Below are positions 557 through 43,494 of a DNA stretch of 43,494 bases, in pieces (position 1 is the stretch's first letter; every line of letters starts with the position of its first letter). Origin of the DNA: Acholeplasmataceae bacterium (lineage in GTDB: Bacteria > Bacillota_I > Bacilli_A > Acholeplasmatales > Acholeplasmataceae). The notes beneath the pieces were generated by a model. That model did no database searches, was not told the DNA's origin, and saw nothing but the letters and a program-made list of their open reading frames with translations. The position numbers were made by a program, and so were the translations under genes. The DNA is taken from the NCBI GenBank assembly GCA_018400755.1, contig JAGYLU010000012.1, positions 1 to 43,494 on the forward strand, written 5' to 3'.

Positions 557-558
557 AG

Positions 559-1567: not shown

Positions 1568-1610
1568 GATAGGCCGATAACGGCTGCGGATGCAGCATAG
1601 TTCCTAAGGG

Positions 1611-3043: not shown

Positions 3044-3058
3044 AAGGCACACCTCCGT

Positions 3059-3087: not shown

Positions 3088-3092
3088 ATAAA

Positions 3093-3137
3093 CTGGTATG
3101 GTGGAATAACCAGAAAATAAAAAATGAACCATACCAG
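3093..3137. promoter_or_regulatory. Candidate PdxR operator (10-bp inverted repeat)
   Basis: CTGGTATGGT (3093-3102) and ACCATACCAG (3128-3137) are perfect inverted copies 25 bases apart, between the divergent pdxS and pdxR genes. A CCAG remnant at 3110-3113 may be an additional partial site. PdxR-type MocR regulators bind spaced repeats in the pdxR-pdxST intergenic region, repressing their own gene and activating pdxST. Binding here is inferred. Confidence 0.65.
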
Positions 3138-3149
3138 ATGAGGCAAAAC

Positions 3150-12269: not shown

Positions 12270-12513
12270 AAAGATCAGACGTGAGATTGATGACATTGAT
12301 GACCAGATGATGGATCTGTTTATGAAACGGATGGAACTGGTGCATGCTGTCGGTATCCACAAGAAGCAAGCGGCACAACCGATTTCAGATCCCAAACGGG
12401 AAAAAGAAGTGCTTGACCGTCTGAAAGCAAGATTATCCAATGTCAATCTTTGGCCGTACTACAAACGGTTTGTCACCCATATGTTCCTGTTGTCCAAAGA
12501 ATACCAAAAATGA
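12256..12513 (+). CDS. Chorismate mutase, AroQ class
   Basis: Rearranges chorismate to prephenate. An 85-residue all-helical protein with the AroQ pattern: IEKIRREIDDIDDQMMDLFMKRMELV, then KKQ in helix 1-2 and DPKREKEVLDRL in helix 2-3. It begins at ATG 12256 with a near-perfect GGAGGTGA (12243-12250) five bases upstream, inside the end of aroA. It is a stand-alone domain, not fused to dehydratase or DAHP synthase as in many Bacillota. Its stop overlaps the aroE start as ATGA. Confidence 0.92.
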   Translation: MQAIEKIRREIDDIDDQMMDLFMKRMELVHAVGIHKKQAAQPISDPKREKEVLDRLKARLSNVNLWPYYKRFVTHMFLLSKEYQK

Positions 12514-13292: not shown

Positions 13293-14308
13293 ACACATAC
13301 GGACAGTTTTTCAAAGTGACCCTTTTCGGGGAGTCCCATCAACCTGAGATCGGCGTCGTGGTCGAGGGTGTGCCAGCGGGGACAGTCATTGACATGACCT
13401 TGATCGAACAGGATCTGAAGAAACGTCGCCCCGGAGCCGTCGGAACGACCGCCAGGGTCGAGGCGGATCACTTTCGGGTGACCGCAGGGATTTTTCAGGG
13501 TCGGGCAACGGGATCACCGTTGCATCTGGTGATTGAAAACACCGACACCAGATCGAAAGATTATCAGCATTTGCTCAAGCAACCCCGCCCTGGTCATGCC
13601 GATTATGTCGCTTCCATCAAGTATGGGGGATTTCATGATCATCGCGGTGGTGGTCGTTTCTCAGGACGCCTGACCGCTGCTTTGGTGATGGCAGGCAGTC
13701 TTGCCAAGATGTTTTTGCCATATACGTTTGAGACGGAACTGATCAAAGTGGGTACCTTGACCGACATGTCATCACTCGATCAATATCTTGAGGGCATCAA
13801 AGCCAAAGGTGAATCTGTCGGAGGTATTGTAAAGCTCTCTGTCAAAGGCATCCCGGTCGGTATTGGTGAGCCCTTCTTCCAAAAGCTTGATGCTGAGATT
13901 GCCAAGATGATGTTTTCCATTCCGGCCGTCAAAGGGGTGTCTTTTGGTCTTGGATTCGAAGGTGTTGAGAGGCTTGGAAGCGACTTCAATGATGTCTTTT
14001 CCGATTCAGACGGCACCACACTCTCCAACCATAGCGGTGGCGTGTCCGGAGGTCTTTCAAATGGAAACGACCTTGTTTTGAAGGTGTTCGTGAAACCAAC
14101 GTCATCCATTCAAAAGACCCAAGAGACCTATGACTTTGAAACGAAGACACTGAAGCCACTCTCGATTGGCGGGCGTCATGATGTCGCGATTGTCAGACGG
14201 GCCGGGATTGTGTTGGAAAATGCCTTGGCCATTGTGCTGGCCGATCTGACGCTCATAGCCCGGGCAACCAAGATCGAAAAGCCAATATCAGTGCCTCAGA
14301 ACCTATAA
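13289..14308 (+). CDS. aroC: Chorismate synthase
   Basis: Last step to chorismate: 1,4-elimination of phosphate from EPSP, needing reduced FMN. The 339-residue protein begins NTYGQFFKVTLFGESHQP, the family's first signature with its conserved His. RPGHADY, HDHRGGGRFSGR (second His) and the C-terminal RHDVAIVRRA follow. Reduced FMN could come from a flavin reductase or flavodoxin; a flavodoxin gene lies 12 kb away but no link is shown. Last gene of the aromatic operon; recG follows after five bases. Confidence 0.96.
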   Translation: MNTYGQFFKVTLFGESHQPEIGVVVEGVPAGTVIDMTLIEQDLKKRRPGAVGTTARVEADHFRVTAGIFQGRATGSPLHLVIENTDTRSKDYQHLLKQPRPGHADYVASIKYGGFHDHRGGGRFSGRLTAALVMAGSLAKMFLPYTFETELIKVGTLTDMSSLDQYLEGIKAKGESVGGIVKLSVKGIPVGIGEPFFQKLDAEIAKMMFSIPAVKGVSFGLGFEGVERLGSDFNDVFSDSDGTTLSNHSGGVSGGLSNGNDLVLKVFVKPTSSIQKTQETYDFETKTLKPLSIGGRHDVAIVRRAGIVLENALAIVLADLTLIARATKIEKPISVPQNL

Positions 14309-24451: not shown

Positions 24452-26531
24452 ATGTCTTTTTTGTTATCTTTGATGGTGATTGCATCAATGCCATTTTATG
24501 AGATCGTTTGGGAAAATGACTTTATTGAGATTGAACTTCATGAGGCGGTTGAAGCTTATAAATATCTGCCGAGTGCGACCTTGACCATCGATGGTGAGGC
24601 GGTCCACGACCCAGAGATGTTTTATGAAGTTGGCGTTGACCGAACCTTCTTCTCGGTCGTTCACAGCAATACCGTGAAGACCCATACGGTCAAGTATCCG
24701 GGTGACGTTTCCATCATTTGGGAATCGGACATCGACCAGATCAGTGACATTCTCGATCGTTGATCGGATTGCGCCCGAGGTTGTCTTTGTTCCTGAGTTT
24801 AGGATTCCCGTGGGAGAAAAGCTTCCCGATATGATGGAAGGACTTGTTTTAGCTGATAATTACGATGATGCGTCTGATCTTGTGATAACTGTCGATATCG
24901 CGTCTGTCATGACCGATGTCGCAGGGTGTTATCCAGTCACTTATACGGTCTTGGATTCATCTTTGAGAGCAGACGGTGTTTGTCATTGAAGTCATCGTAT
25001 TTGATGCCAAACCACAAATCATCGAGAAGAAAGATATATGGTCATGAAAATCGGAGATGTGTTTTCATGGAGCGATTATCGACGATTTACGATAACGAGG
25101 ACCGGTTTGTAAATGTGCTTGTAGATGACGATATGATTGACTGGAGAGTTCCAGGCGATTATCGAGATTATGATTGTTACGACGGCAATGCGGGACTAAC
25201 GACGACAGTGGCTTTACCGATCACCCTTTATGATGGCACAAAACCGGGTTAGCGAAGTCGGTGGAAAATTATCTTGTCGGTTGGAACTGATGCGGCCATG
25301 ATTGATTTATATCAGTATGTGATCCCGGGGTGCGTGATGATGTTGATGATTTGAAGACACATGATGTCACGATTGAGGCATATGATGATTGATCAGTGTT
25401 CTTGGTGTCTATGAGATCGATTGTCCGGTGAGCGACAAAGAGCGGAAACCAAACCATCAAAGGTGAAGTGCACATCGTCGATGACATCAAAGCCCGATAA
25501 TCGAGCTCATCCGGATCCTTGAGTTATCGGTAAGTCACTTCCCGTTTTGGTCGACGATGTTTGGGATCCTGAGATAACATCAGTGTGAGAAGAAGATCAA
25601 AGTCACTTATGACATCAAGATCGATATGAACAAAACGGGTATCTATCCTTTGTTTGTTGTGGCAATAGATGGTGTTGGAAACAGACGTGTCTTTGAGACG
25701 TATGTCTTAGTGGTCGATCGTGATCAGCCTTCGATCACCCAGTTGGAAGAGATCGTGATCACTGATTTTAAACCAAGTGCACTACGCTCGTATTTTAGTC
25801 TTTCTGATAATTACGATATCTCTGAGCAGCTGCTATTTGAAGTGAATGACGATTACGTGGATTATGAGACGATTGGCGTCTACCCGGTGATGATCCTGGT
25901 TTCTGACGCCGCCGGCAATCAAACTGAACTAGAGACGGTTGTCTATGTGATGGATCTGATTTCTCCTATCATTGATCTTCGCGTCAACAGTCTCGAACTA
26001 GAGATCCATCAACCGATGCCTGACATCGACGCCTTGGTGAATGGGGTTACCGACAATGGCGAACCTTTGACGATTGACGAGATCGTCATCGAAGGAGAGG
26101 TTGATGTGGCCAAGATTGGTCTTTATACTTTGACTTTGAGCATCAGGGACAGTTCTGGTAACATCGGTCTTGAAACGATTGACGTCATGGTAAATGACAC
26201 TGAAGACCCAGTCATCACAATGACTGATCTGACCATCAGGCAAGGGGATCAGATTGATCTCTTGGATGGGGTGGAGGTTGAAGATCGAAGCGGGTCGGTC
26301 ACGCTCCAGATCTTTCCAAAGACCATCGACACATCGGTTGCAGGGCTAAAAACAGTGATGGTGGTTGCCACAGACAGTCGGGGCAACCAAAGTATCAGAT
26401 ATCGTCTGATTGAGGTTACGCCGGTTGCAACAAAGCGAACGATAACAGATTTTCTTCCCATGATGATCATCACGACATTGGGGTTATCAGTCCTCGCATA
26501 TTTACAAAAGACAAGTGGTAAGAGATATTGA
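24452..26531 (+). pseudogene. Ig-like (DUF5011/HYR-type) surface protein gene broken by frameshifts
   Basis: A GGAGGTGG ribosome site and ATG 24452 open a frame with a short hydrophobic start. Coding similarity then jumps frame near 24700 and again near 24965. It is fragmentary, with several stops, to about 25620, and resumes as a clean 301-codon frame (25626-26531). Across the breaks the same repeat can be followed: a D-N-Y-D turn, then G-V-Y-P-V, a V-S-D-A-A-G-N-Q strand pair and V-x-D-x-x-x-P-I. These are bacterial Ig-like modules of about 75-80 residues. The end has a hydrophobic helix (about 20 residues) and a basic tail, so the intact protein was probably anchored outside the membrane. 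The breaks could be gene decay or indel errors in the assembly. Confidence 0.75.
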
Positions 26532-27108: not shown

Positions 27109-27125
27109 GAAACCAGGTGAAGATG

Positions 27126-30101
27126 ATGTTTGGAGTCTTTGGATTGCAAAGTGCCTTCAGCATGCTGAAGAATACAATTCCCATCGAAACACTTGTCACA
27201 TCCGCCAAGCAAGGGGGGTATGACTTTGTCGCGCTTTCAGACGAATCACTTCATGGGACACTCAAATTGTTCAAAGCATGCAACGCACAGGGATTGAAGC
27301 CTGTCCTTGGATGGCGGGTTACCGTGACAATCGATTTGGTTGAAACATCCTTTCTATTGCTTGTCAAAAATTTAAAAGGGTATCAAAACCTGTTACAGTT
27401 ACAAATCGACAAAATCAATGAGAAGACGTTGACAATCGACCATCTCGCCAGACGACAAGAGGGCTTGATATTTATCTCAGACACCGCGATGTCGGTGATC
27501 GATCAGGCGATTCTTGAAGATGACATGAACGAGGCTTATCGTTATGCGAATCAGTTTGGTTCTTTGTTTGATACATTTTTGATTGGGCTTGGCCTAGAGA
27601 CATTCGATGCCGAAATGAAGGTTGCTCCAGGGCTCCTACAAATCTCTGGAAAGACGGGTTGCAAGCTTGTTCCAGTACACCGCACATCATACATAGGAAA
27701 CTCCCAAAAAGACGTTTACAAAGCCCTTTTACAGATATCTGGATTAGACCTGAAAGAGATTGCTGAGCCTGATCGATCATTTATGGACAGGCATCAACTT
27801 GAGACCATGTATCAGGATTATCCTTATGTTTTTGAAACCGCATCCGAGCTCGTTTCAGGGATTGATTTCAATCTTGAACTACCTGAGTTTGACATGCCAC
27901 AGTTCAAATTGGACCAAGGCGTGACATCGAAAGACTATCTGCATTCTTTGGCAACAGTGGGTCTATCCAAACGTCTCCGATCGACAAATGATGCGAATCA
28001 TGGCCTTTATCGTGAGCGTCTTGCCTATGAGCTGAAAATGATTCATCGGATGGGCTATGACAATTACTTCCTGATTGTCTATGATTTTGTCAGGCATGCC
28101 AAGCAAAGCGGGATTCTTGTCGGTCCCGGACGTGGGTCCGCCGCGGGATCGCTCGTCGCTTATGCGACTGGGATTACCGATGTTGACCCGATCAGGTTTG
28201 ATCTTCTTTTTGAACGGTTTCTAAATCCGGAACGGATCAGCATGCCGGATATTGATATGGATTTTCCCGATGACAAACGCGATGAGGTCATCAGATATGT
28301 CGCCAAGACATATGGTGAGAACCACATCGCTTCGATTGTCACCTTTGGGACGTTTGCCAAACGATCCTCGATCAGGGATATTGCCAAGGTCATGGGAATC
28401 AGTTCTGACCGGATCACTGGTCTTGTCGAACGGATATTGAAAAACCAGATTGAAACGTCTGACCGGGAGATGCAGTCTCTTGTCTCGGCAGCCAACGCCA
28501 TCGAGGGACTCCCTAGACAGACAGGAACGCACGCCGCCGGAATTATTTTGGCGAAACAGGATCTTCTTAAGTGGCTTCCCTTGCAAGAGGGACCATTCCC
28601 CTTTTATCAGAGTCAGTTCGAAGCATCTGATTTGGAATCTCTTGGTCTTCTCAAAATCGATTTTCTGGGGATCAGGAATCTCTCTGTCATCGACCAGGTC
28701 GTCAAAACCCTTCATGCACAGGGAACATCCATTGATCTCAAACATATCCCTTATGACGACTCCAAGACATATGACTTGTTATCCAAGGCCGAGACATCAG
28801 GTCTGTTTCAACTCGAGTCAGGCGGTATGAGAGCATCACTGGTCAAGTTGAAGCCGTCCTCATTCGAGGATATCATTGCGATTCTTGCGCTTTACAGACC
28901 GGGGCCGATGGAACACATCGATACCTATGTCAGAAGGAAAAATGGCGAACCATATCATGACATCCACCCGGTTCTGACACCGATTCTAAAAAACACATAC
29001 GGGATCATTGTTTATCAGGAACAGATTATGAAAATCGCTTCTGAATTTGCCGGATATTCCCTTTCTGAAGCGGATATCTTAAGACGCGGCATATCCAAGA
29101 AGGATGTTGATATCCTTGAAGAGGAACGCAAGAGATTCATTCATAAAAGCCTTTCAAAGAATCGATTGGCCGCTGAGGCGAAAATCATTTATGACTATAT
29201 TGTCAAGTTCGCCAATTACGGATTCAACCGCAGTCATAGCGTCGCCTATGCGATGGTCGCTTACCAGATGGCGTATCTGAAAGCGAATTATTTTGGTGTC
29301 TTCATGACAATCTTGATGACATCAGTGATCGGTAATGAGTCACTGACCCGTGAGTATGTCCAGGAAGTCAGAAGACGTGGCATCAGGATCCTTCCTCCTG
29401 ATATCCATCGAAGTGGTGAGCACTATCTCTACGACAAGGACAGTATCACTTTGCCGCTTTCGGCCATCAGATCGATCAGCCGAAACACCGTCTCCAAGAT
29501 TCTAGACATCAGGAAAGAAAGGCCCTTTGTTGATTATCAGCAATGCAAAACCAGACTCAAAGGGGCCATCAATGACAAACAGCTTGACATGCTGATCAAA
29601 AGTGGTGCGTTTGATGTCTTCGGTGAGACCAGACGCACGATGCTTGAGAACAAGCAGATCGGACAAGCCGGATATGAGCAATACATCCAGGATTTTGAAC
29701 TTAGGACATATGAGGAGTTTTCCTTTGCTGATCTGGCGGCCATGGAAATCGAATCATTAGGCTTTTCGTGTCTGTTCAATCCGATGACCGCCTACGCCAA
29801 AGAACGCAAAGAGATGGGGTTGATGACTTTCTCCGACTTCAACAACCGAACATCTGGACGGGTTCTCGCAACGGCCAGGTCAATCAAGGCAATCAAGACA
29901 AAGTCAGGACAACGAATGGCTTTTGCGGTCCTTGATGACGGGCTCATTGAGCAAGAAGTCACCCTCTTTTCCGAGGCGTATGAGGTGTTTTTAAAGATTC
30001 CGGCGGGATCATTGATGATTTTTGATCTTCAAGAAAGAATCTACCGAGATAAAAAAACATATGTGGTTTCAAAGGTCGAACCCCTCGAGAAACATGACTG
30101 A
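27126..30101 (+). CDS. dnaE: DNA polymerase III alpha subunit, DnaE type
   Basis: A 991-residue replicative polymerase of the DnaE class, in Bacillota usually the primer-extending partner of PolC. The N-terminal PHP domain (about 1-110) has lost the usual HxH metal motif (it reads FGLQSAFSML), so it is unlikely to be a nuclease. The polymerase core shows GRGSAAGSLVAYA (334 on), the catalytic aspartates in PDIDMDFPD (about 374-382), FQLESGGMR, YRPGPM, and NRSHSVAYAMVAYQ (about 700). A helix-hairpin-helix and a C-terminal OB fold (about 910-985) follow. I chose ATG 27126 (or 27123), with AGGTGA just upstream. The length is shorter than the 1,100-1,200 of Gram-negative DnaE and fits the Bacillota DnaE type. 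Confidence 0.93.
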   Translation: MFGVFGLQSAFSMLKNTIPIETLVTSAKQGGYDFVALSDESLHGTLKLFKACNAQGLKPVLGWRVTVTIDLVETSFLLLVKNLKGYQNLLQLQIDKINEKTLTIDHLARRQEGLIFISDTAMSVIDQAILEDDMNEAYRYANQFGSLFDTFLIGLGLETFDAEMKVAPGLLQISGKTGCKLVPVHRTSYIGNSQKDVYKALLQISGLDLKEIAEPDRSFMDRHQLETMYQDYPYVFETASELVSGIDFNLELPEFDMPQFKLDQGVTSKDYLHSLATVGLSKRLRSTNDANHGLYRERLAYELKMIHRMGYDNYFLIVYDFVRHAKQSGILVGPGRGSAAGSLVAYATGITDVDPIRFDLLFERFLNPERISMPDIDMDFPDDKRDEVIRYVAKTYGENHIASIVTFGTFAKRSSIRDIAKVMGISSDRITGLVERILKNQIETSDREMQSLVSAANAIEGLPRQTGTHAAGIILAKQDLLKWLPLQEGPFPFYQSQFEASDLESLGLLKIDFLGIRNLSVIDQVVKTLHAQGTSIDLKHIPYDDSKTYDLLSKAETSGLFQLESGGMRASLVKLKPSSFEDIIAILALYRPGPMEHIDTYVRRKNGEPYHDIHPVLTPILKNTYGIIVYQEQIMKIASEFAGYSLSEADILRRGISKKDVDILEEERKRFIHKSLSKNRLAAEAKIIYDYIVKFANYGFNRSHSVAYAMVAYQMAYLKANYFGVFMTILMTSVIGNESLTREYVQEVRRRGIRILPPDIHRSGEHYLYDKDSITLPLSAIRSISRNTVSKILDIRKERPFVDYQQCKTRLKGAINDKQLDMLIKSGAFDVFGETRRTMLENKQIGQAGYEQYIQDFELRTYEEFSFADLAAMEIESLGFSCLFNPMTAYAKERKEMGLMTFSDFNNRTSGRVLATARSIKAIKTKSGQRMAFAVLDDGLIEQEVTLFSEAYEVFLKIPAGSLMIFDLQERIYRDKKTYVVSKVEPLEKHD

Positions 30102-30926: not shown

Positions 30927-30955
30927 TTGAAACTCGATTTTTTTTTTGTTAAAAT
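30927..30955 (+). promoter_or_regulatory. Predicted promoter of the giant gene with T10 in its spacer
   Basis: TTGAAA (30927-30932) and TAAAAT (30950-30955) are exactly 17 bases apart, and ten of the spacer bases are a T run (30938-30947). The start would be near 30962, giving a leader of about 54 bases before ATG 31016. Confidence 0.75.
30938..30947 (+). repeat. Homopolymeric T10 tract
   Basis: Ten T in a row between the -35 and -10 boxes of the giant gene's promoter; the other T runs noticed in this window are seven bases or fewer. Tracts of this kind slip in replication and change spacer length. Confidence 0.85.
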
Positions 30956-31015
30956 GAACCCGAATGAGGTAAAATAAAAGAAATGGTGTAAGACAAAAGA
31001 AAGGTGGTAGGTATT

Positions 31016-34000
31016 ATGCCATCATTGTTGCTTCTTCAATGGGGTATCATTGGCATTTTCGTTTTAATTCATTTCCTCATCGGGTTCGTGAGAGGAACGA
31101 GTAAGTCAGGGTACTACACACTTGTCAGTATCTTCTTGACAGCTGTGACCCTGCTCCTTGTCTCATTCATCACGATACGCTGGTTTTACACACCAGAGGC
31201 TCTGGTCAATCTGATCCAAAGCCAAACCGGAGGCATCATTCCCTCCGACATCGAAGGATACATCCTGGACCCAAGTCTCAGCGGTGTTGTTTTCTCTTTG
31301 GTGGATCTGGTTGTTAGAATCATCGCATTCATTCTCATTTATCCGATTCTCAAGTGGCTTTTGACCTTCATCATCTTCAGGCCAATCTGGAAACACGGCG
31401 TTCTCGCCGGCCAGCTTGCCCGCCAAGATGACAGAAAAGTCAGGGCCATGGCTAAGAAAGCACCGGAAGACCGGACAATGCTTTTGCCATCAAGACGCAT
31501 CAAGATCGGTTTTGTCAGCCGTATCTTTGGTGGTGCACTTGGTGCGGTCCGCGGATTCATCGTCGCTTTCGTATTCCTGTTGCCACTTCTGGTGATTGCG
31601 AGCTTCACGTCAAACATTGGCGATGTCAGCAATCTCGATGCGAACACAGTCACAATCAGCATCGGTGACCGACAACTTGATGTCGGGACCAGCGAGTATC
31701 AGGATATTCTTGATGCACTCGACGAAATGAACAGCGCCGGACTGACGTCCATGGCCCAAAGTGTCAAATTTGGGGACAAGACGTTGGACCGTCTGATCTT
31801 TGACAGGCTGTTCACGACCAATATCATAGACGAAAACAATCGAGTCACCAGAGTCAATTACGGGGACGAACTCGAAAACCTCATGGGTATTGCCCGTGTG
31901 TTGATTGAGGGCGGTTATCTCGATAGTGACTTTGATCTTGAAAGCATCTCCTCCGACAACCTCGATGACATCAAAACCGTCTTCGAACTGATCGGACAAT
32001 CAACCTTGCTCAGCCACATGATTCCAATTGGCACAAGATTTGCCGTTGAGAGTCTGTTGCCGGACATGATTGATGTCAATCTTTACGACCGCGAGAGCAG
32101 CGCTGCTGCCCTAGAAGCGTTCGAAAACATTGACTGGCAAAATGAGTTCATGAGCATCTACGGCATCGTCGAAGCTGTTCTTGAATTTGGAACTGTTGGA
32201 GATTTGATGACCTATGCGGAAAATCCCGAACTTCTGTTCGAGCTCTCTCCTCAGGAAGGTCAAGCACTTGCCGACGTCATTCGTGCCCTCGGCAACACCA
32301 AAGTCACGGTTCTCCTCAATGTCGCACTTGACTATGCGACCACTCTGCAGGAAGCCAAAGACTTTATCGAATGGATGGACCCGGCAGACGTCGAAGCCTA
32401 TTTGGCCGAACGTCTGGATTTTGCTATCAGTGACCTTGAGTATTTCTCAGGTGATGACGGCGAAATCGCAAACATCGCAAACCTGATCGAAACGGTCTTC
32501 AGCGATGAATACGGCGACATCGATTTGGTCAACCTCTTTGAAAACATCAGTGATCCTGAGTATTTGCTCAATCAGGACAATGGTGAATGGATCGGCGCAT
32601 TGGTCGAGAAACTGGTTGATATCCAACTGGTTGTTGAAGCAATCCCTATCGGCGTTGACTACGCTCTCTATGGCTTGCTCAACGAAGATTTCGAACAGGA
32701 ACTGCTTGAAAACATCGATGCCGCTCTGGCCGATGTCGACTGGGCAGGAGAACTGACCAATGTCGCAGACATCTACAAAGAAGCATTGAAACTCGGACTA
32801 TCCGGTATTTTCGGGACTGATCCCGACTACTTCGGAATCATCGATGAAATCGCAGTCAATCAGGGCGATTCCCTGCGTGTGGTCGTTGAAAAGATTTTCG
32901 AAGAAAGCACCGCGGTCAATACCGTACTGGAAATCGTGAGTCCGACCCTGGTTGAAAAATTGATTGAGGATGCTGACCTTCGCGATCTTGCACTTGAAGC
33001 GTTGATGAGCGATCCTGCGAGTGGCGTTGTTGATTTTGACTTCGGTCAGGAAATCAACACCATTTTGGATCTCGTTGACTCACTCTATCAATTCACAACT
33101 GTTTCCGAACTGATTAACTTTGCCGATATGACAACCGATGACATGGTTGATCTCGCTGCAAGGTTTGGAGAAATGAGCACAGCCGATGTTGATTTGTTCA
33201 CATCGCAAATCAGAAACCTCCAAGTGCTTGACAGAGCTGGCGCAAGCATCATTGATTTTGTCGCCGGTGATATCAGCATTGACATGTTTGGAGCGACATT
33301 CAATCCATTGATTCCCGCCGATGTTGATCTTGGTGCGGAATTGACAGCGATATTGAATCTTGCGCACTATGCAGCCGGTTATGTCGGAACAGAACTCGAG
33401 AAGGTTGATCTCTACGAGTACATCGACTTCGCCGGATTGCTTGCGGATCCTGAGTTCCAGGCGTATTTGACAGATACCCCTGCCAACAAACATTCGCAGT
33501 TATTGCTCTCCAATATCGCAAGTTTCGTACTGACCATCAAGGACAGTGCGGATTTGGCTGATTTCTTGGCCGTCCCGGATACGCTTGCCACCGCTGAGCC
33601 GGGAAGCCAGGCATGGAATGATGAAGTCAGCGCCTTGCTTGGTGCCGTCTTTAACCTTGCCGGATCATTCGATGGGTCGTCCTACCTGACCCTATCGGTT
33701 GATGGCATCAGCCGTTTGCTTGAAGACCTTGACCAACTCAAACTTGGTGTTGTCGGTCAATATGCGGATAACGATCTTGCTACCACCGCGTTCTCCGGAT
33801 TCGACGACTCATCGATTTTGATGGCAAGCATTCCCAAGGTCATTGATCATTTCGGTGAAGCCACCGAAGATCTGATTACCGGTTACGCGCTCACAACGCC
33901 CGCATCCCTTCTTGATGTGAATGGTGCGTTGCAGCCTGGCGTTCTGACTGACCTGATCAACGGTCTTGCCGTTGTCTTTGTCGGTTTGAATGAGACGCTC

Positions 34001-37000
34001 GGCTTTGAGACGCTCGGTGATGTCACTGCCAACGAGGATATGCTTGTCTTCCTAGACGCATACAGCGCACTTGATGATACGGTTGTCGACAGATTGGCAT
34101 CCATCCAGTTCTTCCAGGCTGTCATCAGTGACGCATTGCTCTCCGAAGAGGTTCAGGCATTTGTCAGAAGCACCGTCAACGATATGGATCTCGGATTCAC
34201 CGTCAGCAACAATTTCTTCGCATTCGAACGCGATGGCGGCGTTGTCCCGGTATCTGAAATTACCGACCTGTTGCTTTCAGTCAAAGCGCTCGGACTCACA
34301 TCCGCGTTCCTTGATGCACCGATGGATAATCTCTTTGATTTCCTTCAAACCTTAGACGATGACGCCCTCGACGTGATTTTCGGTTCAGTCATCTTAAGAG
34401 AAATCATCGACTTTGCTGTCACCGATGAAAACATCATCGCTTACTTGGTCGATCTTGTCGACACCGAACTCGAAAGTGTTCTCTCCGGTGCCGATTTGCC
34501 GATTGATCTTAATCTCAATGTTGACAACATCATCAGAAGCATCACCGGTATCGAAGGTGATGATGGCCTGTTTGACGTCGAGGAACTCAAGACGCTGATC
34601 AAGGTCTTCAATGAGCTTGGTTTGTCAAGCTTTGATGATTTTGACAATTTCTCAGATCTTGGTTATGTCTATGATCTCATCAACACAACTGAAGTGATTG
34701 AAACCCTGTTCTCATCCGAACGGTTGCTCAACACCATCAGCGAATTGATGACCGATGAAGCACTATTGACCGATCTTTCCATCATGGCAAGCGAAATGGT
34801 CCAAGACTTGGTGGGTGTCACACACATCTTCACCGCTGACCACTTCCGCTTTGATGAGGACAAGTACGGTCTCTTTGAACTGAATGTTCGCCTTGATCCA
34901 GTGCTCAAGGTCACCGAAATCAAGCAATTGATTCTTTCTGGTCTGCGCATTGACTTCTTGAACCTTGAACTCTCCGACAATATGATCGGTGATGTCATCA
35001 ATCTTGCCAACGCAGTTGGTGATGACGGTGTCTCAAACATCGACTTCATCCTCAGCTCCGGTATCCTGATGGCGGTTCTCGACAAGGTCTTGAACCTTGA
35101 AACCAATCCGCTTGGACTGAGAGAGTTCTATCGCGATCTCGTCAATAGCTTTATTCCTGACCTTGGCATTGACATCCTTGATGGTGTCGAAGTCACCGAT
35201 AACCTGTTTGTCTTCAGAGACATTTCTGATGAAAACGGTGTTCTTTTGGTCAGTGAACTCAAAGGCATTCTCCAGACGCTCGTGAACCTTGGTCTTGATG
35301 AAGGCTTTGATGCGACTGAACTCACAGATTATTTCATGGAGATTTTGTTTTCAGGCGATGACCTCTCTGAATATAACGATGTCTTCGCATCGAAGATCAT
35401 CCTGAGCGTTGTGACAAACTTGCTCTCAGAACCTTGGGTGCTCCAGATTGCCCAAAATATTGCTGAAGACGCCCTCGTTGATCTGATTGAAGGCAATGAC
35501 GCACTTGCCGGTCTTCCGGAAACACTTGTTGACCTCATCGTTGGAACGCTTGGCAAGATTGTCGATGAAGATGGCAACTTTGACTATGAGGACGTCGGAC
35601 GTGTTCTGGTCATGTTAAATGAACTAGACATTGACTCCACCGATGATCTTTCAACGATCGGCACTGATGTCTTGAACCAGTTGCTGAATAAAGACATCGA
35701 TGGACAAAACGGTCTCGAATACCTTGCCAATACCAAGACCGTCAGATACGTTGTCGACGCCATCCTCAAAGATGACGATCTCTATGACTATGCGATGGCG
35801 TTCCTTGAAGATGCGACCGGTATTGACTTCAACGATTCCGAACTTTCCGCCAACGGCGGTGCTGTCAATCTCGGATGGATTCAAGAACCCAATGGCAAAC
35901 TCGCCATCGGACCTGAGTTCGATGATTTAGACAATGTCATTTCCGTCGATAGTTTCTATCGTTTGCTTCTCGCTTTCGCAGCTGTTGATATCGATGCCAT
36001 TCTCAACGATGAACTCGATTTGGCGTTTGCCTATAGTTTCCTCGAAGAACCATTCGATGATATCGCTGGCGACCGTCTCTATCACATCTACAATTCCGAA
36101 TTGCTCGAAGCTGTTCTTACGGAACTGATTGCCAACAACGGACTTCAGGCCTACATCACCGATCTCGTCAACGAGCAGATCCAATCAGCTGTTGCCGGAT
36201 TTGATGCCAGCATTGATGTGCCGCTACTTCAACCTGAAGACTTGGGCATCACATTCGAACTGATTGATGAAACCTCAATTCGCGGTTTGCTCACAGCCAT
36301 TCAGGCAACCGGCCTCGAATCCATTGATGACGCGCTCGAACTTGACACTGTCAGTGAAATCGCCGACTTCCTGGATTTCGAATCCGCAAACGAGAAACTG
36401 ACCGCGATTCTAGAGACTACTTTGGTCCGTCATTTGATCAGCACCGTGCTGACAACGGATCTTTGGAGTGAGGTTGCTGCCCAGTATGTCAACACATTGG
36501 CCGCTGATCTCGGTATCGAAATCACCGCTGATCTGATCGCATTTGACGCAGCGCTTCTTGATGATGAAGGATTGGTTCCAACCGAGTATGTCTATCAGTT
36601 GGTTGTTGTTGGATATGTCATCTTGACATCTGGCGAAACCATAGATCCTGAATACATCAGAAACCTTGACTTGAACATGACCGTCGGTGGTGTCCAAAAA
36701 TCAAGAATCGATCATATCCTTGACTCAGTCATTCTCTATAACTACATTGATCGCTTCCTGATGAGCACCGAAGTCAAAGACATCCTTGCCGACCTCGCGA
36801 ATGAACAAATCGCCGACCTCGGTTTCGATTTCACGATTTCTGCTGACAAATTGAACGTGCCGGCAAGTGCGCTAGAAGATGGCAGCTTGAAACGCAGTGA
36901 GATTCTTGCGATTCTTGCGACATTCAACGCCCTTGAACTCGACTCGTTCGATGAATTACAAAACTTTACCGACCTCGGTTATCTCTATGACAAAGTCACG

Positions 37001-40000
37001 ACAACCGATGTTGTTGAAACCCTCTTTGAATCGAATTGGATCCACGTCGGCCTAAGCCGTCTGTTTGCCAATGAGTCAGCCCTTGCCGAACTGGCTGAGC
37101 TGGTCTCCGGATATGCTGAGGAATTCCTTGGTGTGCCGCACACATTCACGGCATCTGATTTCGATTTCACACTCGACAAGTATGGCATCTTCGCATACGA
37201 CGATGTTGATGATGTCAATCTGATCAAAGTCTCGGAAGTCAAAGAACTGATTGCGGCCGGACTCAGAATCGATTGGCTGAATGTCGACTTCTCTGACATT
37301 GAAGGTCTGATTGACCTCATGCTTGCAGAAGGTGATGACAATGTCAGAAACATCGAAGCGATCCTAGAAGCCAATATTCTGGTCGCCGTCATTGACAAGG
37401 TCCTAAACCTTGAAACAGATGATCTTGGATTGCGTTCATACCTGACCGAAGTCATCAATCACTTCTTGCCGGATCTCGGCATTGACCTGCTTGATGGTGT
37501 CGTGGTTTCAGAGAACTTATTGACATTCAGAGGTATCACGGATGAAAATGGCGTTATCAATACGGACGAGTTTATCGCCCTACTTGAAGTCGCCTCACTC
37601 CTTGACTTCGATAACATCAGTGCCGATCTCGCCTTCCAGCTGATTGATACGGATGCCAACGGCAACGGTGTTGAAGACTTCCAAGACGTCTTCGCTTCCA
37701 AGCTTCTTCTGAGCCTGTTGACCAACGTCTTGAATGAAACCGCCCTCCTCGATGTCGCACAAGGTTTGATTGAAGATATCGTTTCCGGTATTGACATGCT
37801 TGATGGTCTCGTGATTGATTATGATGCCATATTGAGTGTGCCAGGAAGCATTGTTTCCGAAACTGGTAACTTCGATTACATGGATCTCAGACGCATCTTC
37901 GTCACTGTCGGTCTCCTGGGCATCGAAAGCATCGATGATTTCTCCAATATCTCACTTGATGCGATTGATACCCTTATGAATGCCGAAGAAGAAGGCGTTG
38001 ACGGTCTACGTTACGTCGCTGAAACAAGAATGATTCGCTATCTGCTTGACGCAGTTGTCAAACAAGAAGGCATCATTCCGTTTGGCGTTGACCTGATTGC
38101 TGATCAGATTGGTATTGAAATGTCTGGTGCCGATCTCGTCTTTGGCGGTCAGTATGATGACATCTATGGCATCATTACTGCGGATCACCTCTATGACTTG
38201 CTTCTTGCTGCCGCAGCCGTGGATCTTTCAATCCTTGAAGAGTCCTTCACCATCACTTATGTCTATGGATATACACGTCCGGCATTCGAGGGTCGTGAAG
38301 GCGATCGCCTATCCTATATATATGGCTCCGAAATCCTGACCGATCTGATCAAACAGCTGATCAATAATGAAGGCTTGCAGAATTATGCGCTTGACCTCGC
38401 CAATGAACAGCTCGAATCGATCGTTTCCGGACTTGATTCGTCCATTGATGTGCCGGTTCTGACTTGGGACGATCTTGGTATCACATACGATCTGATTGGA
38501 GAAGCGGCGATTCGCCAGCTCCTCAATGCCATTGAAAACACTGGTATTGTCTCCATCAGCCAAGTGCTCGCCCTCACTGATATTGACGGTATTGCTGAAC
38601 AGCTTGACTTGGAGAACTCACTTGCCAAGACCCAAGCCATTCTTGCGGTTCCGCTCATCCATCACGTGCTCTCAACCGTTCTTCTCACAGATATCTGGAG
38701 TGATGTCGCTGCCCAGTACATCAATATTCTGGCAGCTGATTTCGACATTGAGATCTCAGCAGACCTGCTTGCTCTCGATGACAGTCTCCTTGATGGCAAC
38801 GGCATGGTCGACGTCACGCACCTCAGCCAGGTCATTGGTTCCGCATATGCTGTCTACACAGCCCTTGACGGAATCACCCCGGCATTCATCCGTGCGCTTG
38901 AAGATGATGTGACCATCAACGGCAAGACCCAATCCAGAATTGACCATGTGCTTGATTCCGAATTGATCCACACTTATGTTGATCGTTTCCTTACAAGCAT
39001 GGAAGTCAAGGAATTGGTTGCCCAATTCCTCTCAGACCAACTCGCATCGTTCGGCTTTGAAGATATTCCGATCGAAGCCGCTGGATTGATGGTTCCGCCA
39101 ATCGCTCTTGAAGACGGACGTCTCAAGCGTAGTGAAATCAAGGCGTTCATCGGTGCCTTCAATGCACTCGAACTCGATTCTTTCGATGAATTCCAAAACT
39201 TCACCGACTTGACGTACGTTTATGACAAACTGCAAAACACGCAATTTGTCGACAAATTGTTTGAATCCAACTGGATCCATGTCAGCCTGAGCCGCACTCT
39301 GACGAGTGAAGCGACATTAGATGCGTTGGCTGAATTGGCAACCACCTATGCTGAAGAGTTCACCGGTGTCGAACATGAGTTCACAGCCGCTGACCTGGAT
39401 TTCACCCTTGAGAAATATGCGCTCTTTGAAGAAGACGCAGAACTCGAAGAACTCCTCATCAAAGTCTCCGAAGTGAAGGCGCTTCTGACTGCTGCAACCA
39501 GAGTTGATTGGTTGAATGCCGACTTTGGCAACATCAGTGGTATCATCGATCTCTTGATGGATGAAGGTACCGACGGCAAGCGAAACATTGAAGCCATGCT
39601 TGAAGCAAACATTCTGATGGCCATCTTCGACAAGGTCCTAAACCTTGAGACAGATGATCTCGGACTCTCGGCATACTATGTCGAAGTGCTCAATGTCTTC
39701 CTACCGGAACTTGGTATCGCTGAACTCGAAGACATCGACATTTCCGCAGACCTCTTGGTCATGCGTGGGGTCGCCGATGAGAACGGACTCCTCAAGGTGT
39801 CTGAAATCGTCGCGCTTCTTGACGCTGTCCAAATCATTGGCATTGATGCCTTCTCTGCTGATGTGATCTTCGAACTCGTCAACAACGATTCCAATAACAA
39901 TGGCGTTGAGGATTATCAGGATATCTTCGCATCCAACATCGCGATGAGCCTGATCACCAATGCGCTCAACAATGACGGACTACTCGACCTTGCCAAGGGC

Positions 40001-43000
40001 ATTGTTGAAGATCTGCTCGTCGACATCGAATTGCTCGATGGCCTAAGTCTTGACCTTGATGCCTTACTTGCCGCACCAGGACAGGTCCTTGATGCCAATG
40101 GCAATCTTGATGCTGGCGATCTCAGAAGACTGTTCGTCACCCTGAGTCATCTGGGCGTCACATCGATCGATGGCTTCTCCAGCCTTGGACTCGATGCCCT
40201 GCAAACACTTGCGACAACGACTGAAGGCGACGTCAATGGTCTTGGTTATGTGGCTGAAACAAGAATCGTCCAATATCTCTTGGGCGCATTGCTTGGAACT
40301 GAGAACCTTGTTCCTTGGGCGATGGATCTAGTCAGCAACATGATCGGTATCGATTTGGTTGAAGTTGAGTTTGACTTCAACGGATACCTGACCGAATTCG
40401 AACCCAGACGGATGGGCAGTGCCGCCATCTATGACCTGTTGCTCGCCGCTGCCGCGGTTGATATTGATGCGTTGACATCTGGCGATCTTGATTTGGCACT
40501 TGCCTATAGTTTCCTTGATCAGCCATTTGCGAACATCACCGGTGACCGTTTGGCACTGATCTTCGGTTCTGACATCCTCAACGATCTCCTTAGGGCAGTT
40601 GTTGAACATGGACCGGTTGCCGATTTCGTCGCTAACCTTGCCAACGATCAACTCGCAGGCGTTCTCGAATCACTCGATCCGACGCTCGAATCACGTGATC
40701 TTGTTGCTGCCGACCTCGGTCTTGCCTATGAGCTGATCGATGAGGCCGCGCTACGCGCTTTGTTGGTTGCCATTCAGGATACCGGACTACAGTCCATCGA
40801 TGAAGCACTTGATATCGCTGACATCGAAGCTGTCGGAGATCTCTTTGATCTCGGTACCTCTCCGGCGAAACTGATGGCCATCCTTGAAGCACCTCTTGTC
40901 CACCACCTCCTGAGCACCGTCCTCACGATTGACATCTGGAGTGACGTGGCCGCCCAATACATCAACATTCTTGCGGCTGACCTCGGTGTTGAAATCACCG
41001 CTGACCTGCTTGCTCTCGATGAAACACTCATCGGTGAAGATGGTATGGTCGCAGTCCAGGATCTCTATGACCTGGTTGTGGTCGCTTATGTGGTCCTCTC
41101 AAGTGGCACTGACATCACCCCGCTCTACTTGCAGAAGCTCGAAAACAACATCGTGATCGGTGGCGGTTGGAGTCAGTCAAGAATTGACCATATCCTTGAT
41201 TCGAAGATTCTCTATAGTTACATCAACCGTTTCCTGACATCGACCGATGTCAAGGAAATCGTGGCAGACCTGGCCAATGACCAGCTTGCAAACCTAGACC
41301 TTGGATTTGACATTCCGATCGAAGCTGCTGGCTTGAATGTTCCGCCAATGGCCTTTGATGAAGATGGCAACTTCAAGCGTTCCGAAATCCTGGCGATGCT
41401 TGGTGCATTCAATGCACTTGGCCTCGAAAGCTGGGATGATTTGAACAACTTCACGGACATCACCTACATCCACGACAAACTTTCAAACACATTGTTCGTC
41501 GACAAACTCTTCGAATCCGAATTGATCCATGTCAGCCTTTCAGACTTCTTCAATAACGAAGCCGCACTGGCTGAACTGGCATCCATCGCTTCGACCTTTG
41601 TTGAAGACCTGACAGGTGTTGCCCACACGTTTACGGCCGCAGACCTTGACTTCACGGAAGTTAAGTACGGTCTCTTTGAGGCTGACCTCATGAAGGTCAG
41701 TGAAATCAAGCAATTCCTCGTCTCCGCTACTGTGATTGACTGGCTCGCTCTTGATACTTCTGATCTTGGCGCATTGGTCGATCTCGCATCCGACAACATT
41801 GATGAGTTGCTCCAATCGAACTTCCTGATGGCGGTTCTTGACAAGGTCCTAAACCTTGAGACTGACCCGCTCAATCTCAGATCGTTCTATGTTGATCTGG
41901 CGAATCAGTTCATACCTGATCTTGGCATCAGCCTACTCGACGGTTTCACAGTGACCGAAGACCTCCTTGTCTTCAGTGATGTTGTCAACGGTGTTGGTGT
42001 TCTTGACAAGGCCCATCTAATCGCAATTGTGGACGCCGCAGCTCTGATTGACTTTGATAGCCTCTCGGCTGACACAGTCTTCGCATTCATCAACAATGAT
42101 CAGAACGGCAACGGCGTGGAAGACTATGAAGACCTGTTCGCTTCGAACATCCTCATGAGCCTTCTCACCAATGCCCTTCAAAATGATGGCGTGATCACCA
42201 TCACCGCTGGTCTGATTGAAGATGCGGTCAGTGGTATCAGCCTACTCGATGGTCTCACCCTTGACTATGAAGGTCTGGCTGCTGTGCCTGGCACTATGGT
42301 TGATGGCAATGGCTTCTTCGATGTCATGGATGTCCGCCGTCTCTTCACGACCCTCTCGATGATTGGTGTCGAAAGCATCGATGACCTCTCAACTGTTGGC
42401 CTAGATGCGCTTGAAATGCTTGTCACAAACGATGACGAAGGTGTTGATGGTCTCAGATTCATTGCTGAAACCAAGACAGTCCGTTATCTCCTTGATGCCG
42501 CTCTCAAGACCGAAGGCCTTGTCGAGTGGGGACTAGGGCTTGCCGAAGACGTTGTTGACATTGACTTCTCAATGATCGACTTCTCATTCGACACATACGA
42601 TGATGTTGAAGGCAGACTCTCGGTTGAAAATCTCTATGACCTGCTGATTGCTGCCGCGGCTGTTGATCTCTCGATCCTCGAAGAATCATTTACCGTCGCC
42701 TATGTCTATGGATATTTGGCTCCGGCATATGATCACATCGCTGGTGACAGACTCTCTCTCATTTATGGATCAGATATTTTGACAGATGTCCTAAAGACCG
42801 TCATTGAAGATGTCAACGTCCGTAAGTATTTGGTTGATCTGATCAATCCGGAACTTGAAGCAGCGGTTCAAGGCCTCAATTCAAGTCTGACCGTTCGTGC
42901 GCTCGCACCGATTGATCTTGGACTCTCTTATGACTTGATTGACGAAGCCGCCATGCGCGCGCTTCTTGAAGCCGTTGAAGCAACGGGCATCAATTCGATT

Positions 43001-43494
43001 TCCGAAGCCCTGGCACTCACGACTCCGAATGCGATCTTCGATGCTTTGAATCTCGCAAACACCGACGATGTCCTCATGGGTCTCTTGTCCGCACCGCTCG
43101 TCCATCATCTGATCAGCACCGTGCTGACCATTGATATCTGGAGCGATGTGGCAGCCCAGTATGTGAACATCCTCGCTGCCGACCTTGGCATTGAAGTGAC
43201 AGCTGACCTGCTCGCCCTTGATGAAACGCTGATTGGTGCGGATGACATGGTCGCGGTCGAACACATTTACGATCTCGTGATATCTGCTTATGTTGTCCTC
43301 TCGAACGGCACCGATATCACCCCAGCTTGGGTTCAGACACTCGAAGAAACAGCAACCATCAATGGATTGACCCAAGAACGGATCAACTTCATCCTTGATT
43401 CTGACATTCTCTACAGCTACATCGACCGTTTCATGACCGATGCCGCTGTCAAGGAAATCGTGGCTGATCTCGCCAATGACCAGATCGAAGGTCT
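31016..43494 (+). CDS. Giant CvpA-like membrane protein with hierarchical acidic repeats (3' end beyond window)
   Basis: One open frame of 4,159 codons with no stop before the edge. It starts at ATG 31016, with AAAGGTGG eight bases upstream. Residues 1-200 hold four hydrophobic helices (about 5-25, 32-54, 85-120, 165-195), with GFVRG after the first and GFVSRIFGGALGAVRG before the last. This is the layout of the CvpA family, which acts in colicin export and envelope homeostasis in other bacteria. Everything after is soluble, strongly acidic, Leu/Ile-rich and, in my reading, cysteine-free. It is built of units of about 101-112 residues; from 34361 these recur as an ordered set of seven. Units start like ILDSxIL-x3-ID-x-FL and have a D-x-x-G-x-hydrophobic-x3-E turn. 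The repeats are likely extracytoplasmic. No known family was recognised for them; function unknown. Confidence 0.85.
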   Translation, partial: MPSLLLLQWGIIGIFVLIHFLIGFVRGTSKSGYYTLVSIFLTAVTLLLVSFITIRWFYTPEALVNLIQSQTGGIIPSDIEGYILDPSLSGVVFSLVDLVVRIIAFILIYPILKWLLTFIIFRPIWKHGVLAGQLARQDDRKVRAMAKKAPEDRTMLLPSRRIKIGFVSRIFGGALGAVRGFIVAFVFLLPLLVIASFTSNIGDVSNLDANTVTISIGDRQLDVGTSEYQDILDALDEMNSAGLTSMAQSVKFGDKTLDRLIFDRLFTTNIIDENNRVTRVNYGDELENLMGIARVLIEGGYLDSDFDLESISSDNLDDIKTVFELIGQSTLLSHMIPIGTRFAVESLLPDMIDVNLYDRESSAAALEAFENIDWQNEFMSIYGIVEAVLEFGTVGDLMTYAENPELLFELSPQEGQALADVIRALGNTKVTVLLNVALDYATTLQEAKDFIEWMDPADVEAYLAERLDFAISDLEYFSGDDGEIANIANLIETVFSDEYGDIDLVNLFENISDPEYLLNQDNGEWIGALVEKLVDIQLVVEAIPIGVDYALYGLLNEDFEQELLENIDAALADVDWAGELTNVADIYKEALKLGLSGIFGTDPDYFGIIDEIAVNQGDSLRVVVEKIFEESTAVNTVLEIVSPTLVEKLIEDADLRDLALEALMSDPASGVVDFDFGQEINTILDLVDSLYQFTTVSELINFADMTTDDMVDLAARFGEMSTADVDLFTSQIRNLQVLDRAGASIIDFVAGDISIDMFGATFNPLIPADVDLGAELTAILNLAHYAAGYVGTELEKVDLYEYIDFAGLLADPEFQAYLTDTPANKHSQLLLSNIASFVLTIKDSADLADFLAVPDTLATAEPGSQAWNDEVSALLGAVFNLAGSFDGSSYLTLSVDGISRLLEDLDQLKLGVVGQYADNDLATTAFSGFDDSSILMASIPKVIDHFGEATEDLITGYALTTPASLLDVNGALQPGVLTDLINGLAVVFVGLNETLGFETLGDVTANEDMLVFLDAYSALDDTVVDRLASIQFFQAVISDALLSEEVQAFVRSTVNDMDLGFTVSNNFFAFERDGGVVPVSEITDLLLSVKALGLTSAFLDAPMDNLFDFLQTLDDDALDVIFGSVILREIIDFAVTDENIIAYLVDLVDTELESVLSGADLPIDLNLNVDNIIRSITGIEGDDGLFDVEELKTLIKVFNELGLSSFDDFDNFSDLGYVYDLINTTEVIETLFSSERLLNTISELMTDEALLTDLSIMASEMVQDLVGVTHIFTADHFRFDEDKYGLFELNVRLDPVLKVTEIKQLILSGLRIDFLNLELSDNMIGDVINLANAVGDDGVSNIDFILSSGILMAVLDKVLNLETNPLGLREFYRDLVNSFIPDLGIDILDGVEVTDNLFVFRDISDENGVLLVSELKGILQTLVNLGLDEGFDATELTDYFMEILFSGDDLSEYNDVFASKIILSVVTNLLSEPWVLQIAQNIAEDALVDLIEGNDALAGLPETLVDLIVGTLGKIVDEDGNFDYEDVGRVLVMLNELDIDSTDDLSTIGTDVLNQLLNKDIDGQNGLEYLANTKTVRYVVDAILKDDDLYDYAMAFLEDATGIDFNDSELSANGGAVNLGWIQEPNGKLAIGPEFDDLDNVISVDSFYRLLLAFAAVDIDAILNDELDLAFAYSFLEEPFDDIAGDRLYHIYNSELLEAVLTELIANNGLQAYITDLVNEQIQSAVAGFDASIDVPLLQPEDLGITFELIDETSIRGLLTAIQATGLESIDDALELDTVSEIADFLDFESANEKLTAILETTLVRHLISTVLTTDLWSEVAAQYVNTLAADLGIEITADLIAFDAALLDDEGLVPTEYVYQLVVVGYVILTSGETIDPEYIRNLDLNMTVGGVQKSRIDHILDSVILYNYIDRFLMSTEVKDILADLANEQIADLGFDFTISADKLNVPASALEDGSLKRSEILAILATFNALELDSFDELQNFTDLGYLYDKVTTTDVVETLFESNWIHVGLSRLFANESALAELAELVSGYAEEFLGVPHTFTASDFDFTLDKYGIFAYDDVDDVNLIKVSEVKELIAAGLRIDWLNVDFSDIEGLIDLMLAEGDDNVRNIEAILEANILVAVIDKVLNLETDDLGLRSYLTEVINHFLPDLGIDLLDGVVVSENLLTFRGITDENGVINTDEFIALLEVASLLDFDNISADLAFQLIDTDANGNGVEDFQDVFASKLLLSLLTNVLNETALLDVAQGLIEDIVSGIDMLDGLVIDYDAILSVPGSIVSETGNFDYMDLRRIFVTVGLLGIESIDDFSNISLDAIDTLMNAEEEGVDGLRYVAETRMIRYLLDAVVKQEGIIPFGVDLIADQIGIEMSGADLVFGGQYDDIYGIITADHLYDLLLAAAAVDLSILEESFTITYVYGYTRPAFEGREGDRLSYIYGSEILTDLIKQLINNEGLQNYALDLANEQLESIVSGLDSSIDVPVLTWDDLGITYDLIGEAAIRQLLNAIENTGIVSISQVLALTDIDGIAEQLDLENSLAKTQAILAVPLIHHVLSTVLLTDIWSDVAAQYINILAADFDIEISADLLALDDSLLDGNGMVDVTHLSQVIGSAYAVYTALDGITPAFIRALEDDVTINGKTQSRIDHVLDSELIHTYVDRFLTSMEVKELVAQFLSDQLASFGFEDIPIEAAGLMVPPIALEDGRLKRSEIKAFIGAFNALELDSFDEFQNFTDLTYVYDKLQNTQFVDKLFESNWIHVSLSRTLTSEATLDALAELATTYAEEFTGVEHEFTAADLDFTLEKYALFEEDAELEELLIKVSEVKALLTAATRVDWLNADFGNISGIIDLLMDEGTDGKRNIEAMLEANILMAIFDKVLNLETDDLGLSAYYVEVLNVFLPELGIAELEDIDISADLLVMRGVADENGLLKVSEIVALLDAVQIIGIDAFSADVIFELVNNDSNNNGVEDYQDIFASNIAMSLITNALNNDGLLDLAKGIVEDLLVDIELLDGLSLDLDALLAAPGQVLDANGNLDAGDLRRLFVTLSHLGVTSIDGFSSLGLDALQTLATTTEGDVNGLGYVAETRIVQYLLGALLGTENLVPWAMDLVSNMIGIDLVEVEFDFNGYLTEFEPRRMGSAAIYDLLLAAAAVDIDALTSGDLDLALAYSFLDQPFANITGDRLALIFGSDILNDLLRAVVEHGPVADFVANLANDQLAGVLESLDPTLESRDLVAADLGLAYELIDEAALRALLVAIQDTGLQSIDEALDIADIEAVGDLFDLGTSPAKLMAILEAPLVHHLLSTVLTIDIWSDVAAQYINILAADLGVEITADLLALDETLIGEDGMVAVQDLYDLVVVAYVVLSSGTDITPLYLQKLENNIVIGGGWSQSRIDHILDSKILYSYINRFLTSTDVKEIVADLANDQLANLDLGFDIPIEAAGLNVPPMAFDEDGNFKRSEILAMLGAFNALGLESWDDLNNFTDITYIHDKLSNTLFVDKLFESELIHVSLSDFFNNEAALAELASIASTFVEDLTGVAHTFTAADLDFTEVKYGLFEADLMKVSEIKQFLVSATVIDWLALDTSDLGALVDLASDNIDELLQSNFLMAVLDKVLNLETDPLNLRSFYVDLANQFIPDLGISLLDGFTVTEDLLVFSDVVNGVGVLDKAHLIAIVDAAALIDFDSLSADTVFAFINNDQNGNGVEDYEDLFASNILMSLLTNALQNDGVITITAGLIEDAVSGISLLDGLTLDYEGLAAVPGTMVDGNGFFDVMDVRRLFTTLSMIGVESIDDLSTVGLDALEMLVTNDDEGVDGLRFIAETKTVRYLLDAALKTEGLVEWGLGLAEDVVDIDFSMIDFSFDTYDDVEGRLSVENLYDLLIAAAAVDLSILEESFTVAYVYGYLAPAYDHIAGDRLSLIYGSDILTDVLKTVIEDVNVRKYLVDLINPELEAAVQGLNSSLTVRALAPIDLGLSYDLIDEAAMRALLEAVEATGINSISEALALTTPNAIFDALNLANTDDVLMGLLSAPLVHHLISTVLTIDIWSDVAAQYVNILAADLGIEVTADLLALDETLIGADDMVAVEHIYDLVISAYVVLSNGTDITPAWVQTLEETATINGLTQERINFILDSDILYSYIDRFMTDAAVKEIVADLANDQIEG
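31853..34360 (+). repeat. Divergent single repeat units upstream of the ordered array
   Basis: About 840 codons of the giant gene that carry the same helix-turn pattern as the later units but much more diverged. Recurrent elements are I-D-W-x-N/G-E near 32130 and 32740, V-x2-L-I-x-F-A-D/A-M and S-I-I-D-F. They are not in the seven-unit order. The last one before 34361 (VVPVSEITDLLL region) is already close to the array type. Confidence 0.55.
34361..36700 (+). repeat. Seven-unit super-repeat, copy 1 (780 codons)
   Basis: First complete copy of the ordered set of seven. It is longer and more diverged than later copies. Unit 4 has an insertion around 35490-35560, unit 5 one around 35820-35900, and the calcium-loop-like segment at the unit 3/4 junction is missing. 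Its unit 7 already carries the conserved LWSEVAAQYVN block. Confidence 0.8.
36701..38932 (+). repeat. Seven-unit super-repeat, copy 2 (744 codons)
   Basis: Units start at 36701, 37013, 37349, 37679, 38006, 38309 and 38630, with lengths 104, 112, 110, 109, 101, 107 and 101 residues. Each begins with a helix of the type ILDSVIL, LFESNWI, ILEANIL, VFASKLL, VAETRMI, IYGSEIL or ILAVPLI, and each has a D/G turn in its second half. At the unit 3/4 junction DANGNGVEDFQD looks like a thrombospondin-3 or EF-hand-type calcium loop. Confidence 0.88.
38933..41176 (+). repeat. Seven-unit super-repeat, copy 3 (748 codons)
   Basis: Same seven units in the same order as copy 2, with long blocks nearly identical at the DNA level, for example the DKVLNLETDDLGL block (near 39629) and the SDVAAQYIN block (near 40939). 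The junction loop reads DSNNNGVEDYQD. Confidence 0.88.
41177..43375 (+). repeat. Seven-unit super-repeat, copy 4 (733 codons)
   Basis: Same unit order as copies 2 and 3. Unit 2 is shorter by about ten residues before the DKVLNLETDPL block, which explains the shorter period. The junction loop is DQNGNGVEDYED. Unit 7 is very close to that of copy 3 (AAQYxNILAADLG then ADLLALDETLIG). Confidence 0.88.
43376..43494 (+). repeat. Seven-unit super-repeat, copy 5 (start only)
   Basis: The last 39 codons before the edge match the start of unit 1 (ILDSDILYSYIDRFM, then VKEIVADLANDQI), so the array goes on beyond the window. Confidence 0.85.

Follow-up and report, generated by a model that had tools for sequence, protein, structure and literature searches.

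The question raised by this locus is what a protein might be that begins with four membrane helices resembling those of CvpA and then continues through thousands of residues of acidic repeats, and what it might do at the surface of a member of the Acholeplasmataceae. The window, i.e., the whole stretch of DNA analysed here, is the entire contig C24 (43,494 bases) of a genome, G000, of 2.23 Mb in 239 contigs. The giant frame opens at an ATG at position 31016 on the plus strand and runs without a stop through 4,159 codons to the last whole codon, which ends at 43492; the window closes with the end of the contig and the 3' end of the gene is therefore missing. The parts of the locus are as follows.

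30927..30955, plus strand: promoter-like TTGAAA-N17-TAAAAT carrying an extended TG; 10 of the 12 bases agree with the consensus (resemblance to the consensus only)
31000..31007, plus strand: Shine-Dalgarno-like ribosome-binding site, AAAGGTGG, 8 bases upstream of the ATG (read from the sequence)
31016..43492, plus strand: giant open reading frame, 4,159 codons, continuing past the contig end (translation, homologues, dN/dS)
31016..31615, plus strand: predicted CvpA-like four-helix membrane domain, residues 1-200 (family profiles, topology; model helices 4-26, 28-50, 86-148 and 166-197)
31391..31519, plus strand: predicted basic cytoplasmic loop between helices 3 and 4, residues 126-168 (15 K/R against 4 D/E; basic in all relatives checked)
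31628..34564, plus strand: first part of the acidic ectodomain, residues 205-1183, predicted mostly helical (model of residues 1-530 and alignment with relatives)
34565..36880, plus strand: repeat block A, residues 1184-1955 (self-comparison)
36881..39115, plus strand: repeat block B, residues 1956-2700, a helical solenoid in the model (self-comparison; pLDDT 85.8, pTM 0.74)
39116..41365, plus strand: repeat block C, residues 2701-3450 (self-comparison)
41366..43492, plus strand: repeat block D, residues 3451-4159, interrupted by the contig end (self-comparison)

The initial annotation had described a single open frame of at least 4,159 codons with a good ribosome-binding site and promoter, followed after the membrane domain by a huge acidic repeat region of more than 3,900 residues. 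Both the frame and the repeat region are borne out; neither an in-frame stop nor an assembly join was found within 31016-43494, and long homologous frames occur in independent assemblies of related species. The ribosome-binding site also stands, whereas the promoter-like site is by itself weak evidence (four such sites were found against 1.7 expected). The N-terminal part of the giant is present in one copy in the genome. Upstream of it, the gene at 27117-30101 reads on inspection as the DNA polymerase III alpha subunit (dnaE), and a dnaE-like gene usually precedes the giant frame in the window's family (most members) but not in other families. Elsewhere in the window, consecutive frames at 8164-14308 resemble, by eye, genes of aromatic amino acid (shikimate/chorismate) biosynthesis, including EPSP synthase and chorismate synthase, which are unexpected for a bacterium of a wall-less group. 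A frame of 301 residues at 25626-26531, in which Ig/HYR-like segments recur and a hydrophobic helix lies at the C-terminus, probably encodes another surface protein, and similar frames are found in the vicinity of the giant gene at two other loci (L056, L063).

Self-comparison of the giant protein reveals blocks of about 745 residues that start at residues 1184, 1956, 2701 and 3451 and are 42-54% identical in pairwise comparison, each holding about seven units of roughly 100-110 residues; in relatives, units of 71, 75, 89, 103 and 170 residues have been tandemly amplified. Since synonymous sites between blocks are near saturation (dS about 1.7-2.4), the blocks are old repeats at the protein level rather than an echo of assembly. 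When the repeats were used to search G000 itself, they matched the 3,540-bp contig C6 (locus L007), where positions 3-3539 of the minus strand form one frame, open throughout, of 1,179 residues of the same repeat family. It aligns to residues 3631-4450 of a homologue from the same genus, with 51% identity across 816 residues, and also to residues 1179-2237 of the 2,922-residue homologue of genome G017. Contig C6 thus continues the family and is probably a later piece of the same gene, although the join to C24 is drawn from similarity rather than from reads and C6 could instead come from a co-binned strain. Because the start of C6 corresponds to the end of a 745-residue block that is just 50% identical to the end of block D, at least one further block is expected between the two contigs. 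The intact protein would then probably exceed 6,000 residues, and adding the C-terminal part seen in G017 we infer a length of about 6,700.

The affinity of the N-terminus to CvpA, also proposed in the initial annotation, emerges solely when this part is scanned alone; scans of the whole protein against Pfam and NCBIfam return chance matches only. Residues 1-215 match PF02674 (Colicin_V/CvpA) at E 0.004-0.005 with 17.3-17.6 bits, below the curated cut-off of 29.3 bits, which is also missed by every giant frame listed in the PF02674 scan of the genomes. (We take the membrane part of MarP, a mycobacterial protein considered below, to be assigned to PF02674 as well.) Matches to PF02674 are nevertheless found in 14 of 20 family members (best E 1.8e-6), and in an hhalign comparison the family profile aligned with eight CvpA proteins of normal size from the same order at 91.8% probability (E 7.3e-7), over helices 1-2 only; the Pfam match spans helix 4. 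Four hydrophobic segments lie within residues 1-204, hydropathy predicts four helices in the window protein and nearly all of its relatives (20 sequences), and G23, G27, K30, R169, G172, G176 and G180 are invariant in 20 members. An AlphaFold2 model of residues 1-530 (18 sequences, pLDDT 83) shows four helices followed by a mainly helical ectodomain, and neither a Foldseek search with this model nor a sequence search with the domain brought up a significant match in the PDB. With CvpA the domain shares four N-terminal membrane helices, a G-x-x-RG-type motif after helix 1 and a G-rich helix 4; in contrast, normal CvpA proteins of the same class mostly have 170-300 residues and lack a giant part, so that a protein of 4,159 or more residues departs from the usual picture of CvpA as a small protein consisting of the membrane domain only. 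The N-terminus is, as judged from these profiles, a distant CvpA-like relative; since it falls short of the curated cut-off, we do not count it among the CvpA proteins proper.

Six genomes (G047, G058, G077, G085, G101 and G110) contain frames of ~570-590 residues that exceed the PF02674 cut-off and look like a mid-size CvpA with an extra part. No neighbourhood shared by giant and normal CvpA genes was found. Among the first 41 genomes normal CvpA seemed restricted to those without a giant, as if the giant replaced it, but this was rejected as a general rule when the class profile search found giants in such genomes too (G033, G039); it is also contradicted by family f19, where giant and normal CvpA occur together.

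A topology prediction, as had been suggested, gives four helices and a charge pattern that places the repeats outside. In the window protein and its relatives, helix 1 is followed by a loop with 1-4 K/R and without D/E, helix 2 by one of acidic or mixed charge, and helix 3 by one with 5-18 K/R, an arrangement that by the positive-inside rule would put both the N-terminus and the giant part outside; we consider it very likely that the giant C-terminal part lies outside the cell. Its composition differs from that of the 15 other proteins of the window: the ectodomain together with C6 has 18.3% D+E and 4.0% K+R, and none of its 5,123 residues is a cysteine, whereas those proteins have 12.1% D+E, 11.6% K+R and 0.27% cysteine, so that 13.6 cysteines would be expected where none is observed (P about 1e-6). 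Of 19 relatives from the order, 17 likewise have no cysteine in the giant part; members of other families of the class have up to 9 there, and the argument is weaker for them for that reason. Neither a second membrane helix nor a sortase signal (LPXTG-type) was seen at the C-termini of 12 relatives with a stop-terminated frame, so the far end of the protein would be free. Profile scans revealed no recognised ligand-binding or adhesin domain.

The initial annotation had also called for a structure prediction of one repeat block. The model of block B (24 sequences, pLDDT 85.8, pTM 0.74) is a solenoid that is helical throughout, with a few short strands. Foldseek comparison with PDB and viral structures returned nothing significant (best E 6e-3 with a TM-score of about 0.13; TM-scores at most about 0.2), and sequence searches with the repeats matched no PDB sequence and no Pfam family; the modelled fold is probably new. 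It resembles HEAT/ARM solenoids in its predicted helical repeat architecture, and Integrator subunits and karyopherins rank highest, without significance, among its Foldseek hits; it differs in having no Pfam HEAT/ARM match and units of ~105 residues with more than two helices. As regards calcium loops of the EF-hand or dockerin type, EF-hand_6 appears below its cut-off (E 0.022) in 3 of 24 repeat blocks, and the motif D-x-[DNE]-G-x-[hydrophobic]-x3-[ED] occurs 7 times against 0.15 expected from residue shuffling, its copies being homologous repeats. If each pair of helices, at 35-40 residues, lengthens a helical solenoid by about 1 nm, 4,000-6,000 residues would span on the order of 100-170 nm, which is large beside the 0.32-0.65 micrometre cells reported for Peloplasma aerotolerans (PMC11122141). 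For the homologues of G017 and G004, which belong to one genus and are 85% identical, the membrane domain has a dN/dS of 0.07 and the rest of the protein one of 0.08-0.23, and between the window and G002, where synonymous sites are near saturation, it is 0.15-0.29 with the membrane domain at 0.15. The membrane domain is thus the lowest part of the protein in both comparisons, and values of 0.07-0.29 along the whole length indicate that the protein has been maintained by purifying selection over its full extent.

The search for homologues in related genomes shows that the family is by no means peculiar to this one. Residues 1-528 were matched in 24 of 41 near genomes. Homologues in named records include those of Peloplasma aerotolerans M4Ah (2,921 residues), Mycoplasmatota bacterium zrk7, Tenericutes bacterium MO-XQ and numerous MAGs of the Acholeplasmataceae, which puts the window within that family or near it; a single-sequence scan recovered 0 named relatives and an alignment-based scan 20. 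The membrane-domain profile matches 103 of 395 genomes in a sample of the class, and the matching frame has 1,000 or more residues in 89 of these (median 1,975, largest 4,461) and fewer than 300 in just 2; in a draw of genomes across the phylum, hits were confined to the same class. Proteins from nine other families of the class mostly begin with N-terminal hydrophobic helices and continue with roughly 1,300-3,900 acidic residues, many with detectable ectodomain similarity to the window's family. The order of the parts is conserved across many species; among relatives the length varies, the anchor is conserved and the C-terminal ends are related. Single-contig genomes have complete homologous genes of 1,629 to 3,683 codons. 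By its profile matches the family spans the class.

Some homologues are broken near the frame start: that of MO-XQ (L119, CP017948.1) has a stop after about 323 residues, the one at G191:C1:982958-983608 has one TAG, and those of G001 (L069/L101) have TGAs; these may be either sequencing errors or genuinely broken copies. Two members occur in some genomes (G038:C1, G117, G132:C1), those of G038 having 3,689 and 1,223 residues. In the window's family, the genera g7 and g8 have small genomes of 0.6-1.1 Mb, and no homologue was detectable in any of those sampled, as would be expected had the gene been lost in the course of genome reduction.

The reading that we favour, and hold to be rather probable, is that of a surface fibre with a multi-helix membrane anchor, its topology and fold being predicted and its function and total length inferred. 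The four CvpA-like helices would sit in the cytoplasmic membrane with the N-terminus outside, and after helix 4 the acidic, cysteine-free part would extend outside for more than 3,900 residues here and probably about 6,000 in the intact protein. This outer part would fold as a long helical solenoid of ~100-110-residue units (about 70-170 in relatives), lengthened through block duplication, and would most likely serve as an extended spacer or fibre at the cell surface, through which the cell attaches to surfaces or to its neighbours. Of the surface fibre, adhesin or envelope scaffold first proposed, display outside is thus likely from the loop charges and the lack of cysteine, whereas a role as adhesin or scaffold is putative.

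A function tied more closely to the envelope, in which solenoids packed side by side would form a mechanical layer, an exoskeleton in place of the missing wall, seems to us unlikely, even though several observations point toward it. The genome G000 has no match to PF00905 or PF01098 (transpeptidase, FtsW/RodA), which fits an organism without a peptidoglycan wall, as had been surmised; all 24 giant-bearing near genomes are likewise free of both, and Peloplasma aerotolerans, whose homologue was noted above, has been cultured and is reported to be wall-less (PMC11122141). Giant bearers are also less often walled, since penicillin-binding transpeptidases occur in 27 of 89 of them against 146 of 306 remaining genomes (Fisher P 0.004), an association that is weak and confounded by shared ancestry. 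Those same 27 genomes speak against the exoskeleton, as do the wall-less genomes of g7 and g8 with no detectable homologue, and no layer-forming feature was seen. They also rule out the rule that the giant occurs only in wall-less bacteria, so that it is no marker of wall-lessness.

The protein might otherwise be a CvpA-type membrane channel or transport regulator whose giant part is a sensory or gating ectodomain. The CvpA of E. coli affects bile-salt resistance, and predictions for it resemble solute transporters or mechanosensitive channels (PMC6705877). The low dN/dS of the membrane domain would suit such a role; block duplication, which has given lengths of about 1,500 to more than 4,400 residues, fits fixed gating poorly, and we regard this account as distinctly unlikely. 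Helical solenoids in known proteins are often intracellular, as the insignificant Foldseek hits named above might recall, and the repeats could in principle form a cytoplasmic scaffold on the inner face of the membrane, but the loop charges in the window protein and its relatives and the absence of cysteine make this quite improbable. That the frame is an artefact, a collapsed or mis-joined repeat chain, as the contig ends inside repeats here and in G002 might suggest, is scarcely credible given blocks near synonymous saturation, an open frame and complete homologous genes in single-contig genomes.

The surface fibre, which we continue to prefer, has precedents for each of its elements. MarP (Rv3671c) of mycobacteria, in which four membrane helices at the N-terminus lead into a C-terminal domain outside the cytoplasm, is a precedent for the anchor (PMC4992679); it differs in having about 400 residues and a trypsin-like protease, of which the giant showed no trace (no Pfam protease domain matched the window protein or three relatives). 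Giant1-3 of Apilactobacillus kunkeei are surface proteins of 3,000-8,000 residues, mostly of elongated helical repeats, with a predicted length of up to about 0.2 micrometre (PMC12863079), a likeness in described architecture; they have a beta-solenoid N-terminal domain, and no CvpA-like anchor has been reported for them. The combination of a CvpA-like anchor with a giant helical-repeat ectodomain joins known elements in a new way. The initial claim that such proteins are not described holds to the extent that neither Pfam nor NCBIfam has a model that the family matches above threshold and that the open-access literature searched does not mention it; it needs amending in that the family is spread over a class.

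More tentatively, we put forward as an outside prospect that the CvpA-anchored solenoid giants may be an ancient, class-wide external fibre coat with a fold absent from the PDB, either an exoskeleton of wall-less bacteria or a general attachment organ. The finding adds a family of giant proteins with an unusual multi-helix anchor, found in roughly one in four of the genomes sampled from a class of small-genome bacteria, a cultured species among them, and offers a probably new solenoid fold. It bears on how surfaces are built in wall-less bacteria and on the role of CvpA-type domains.
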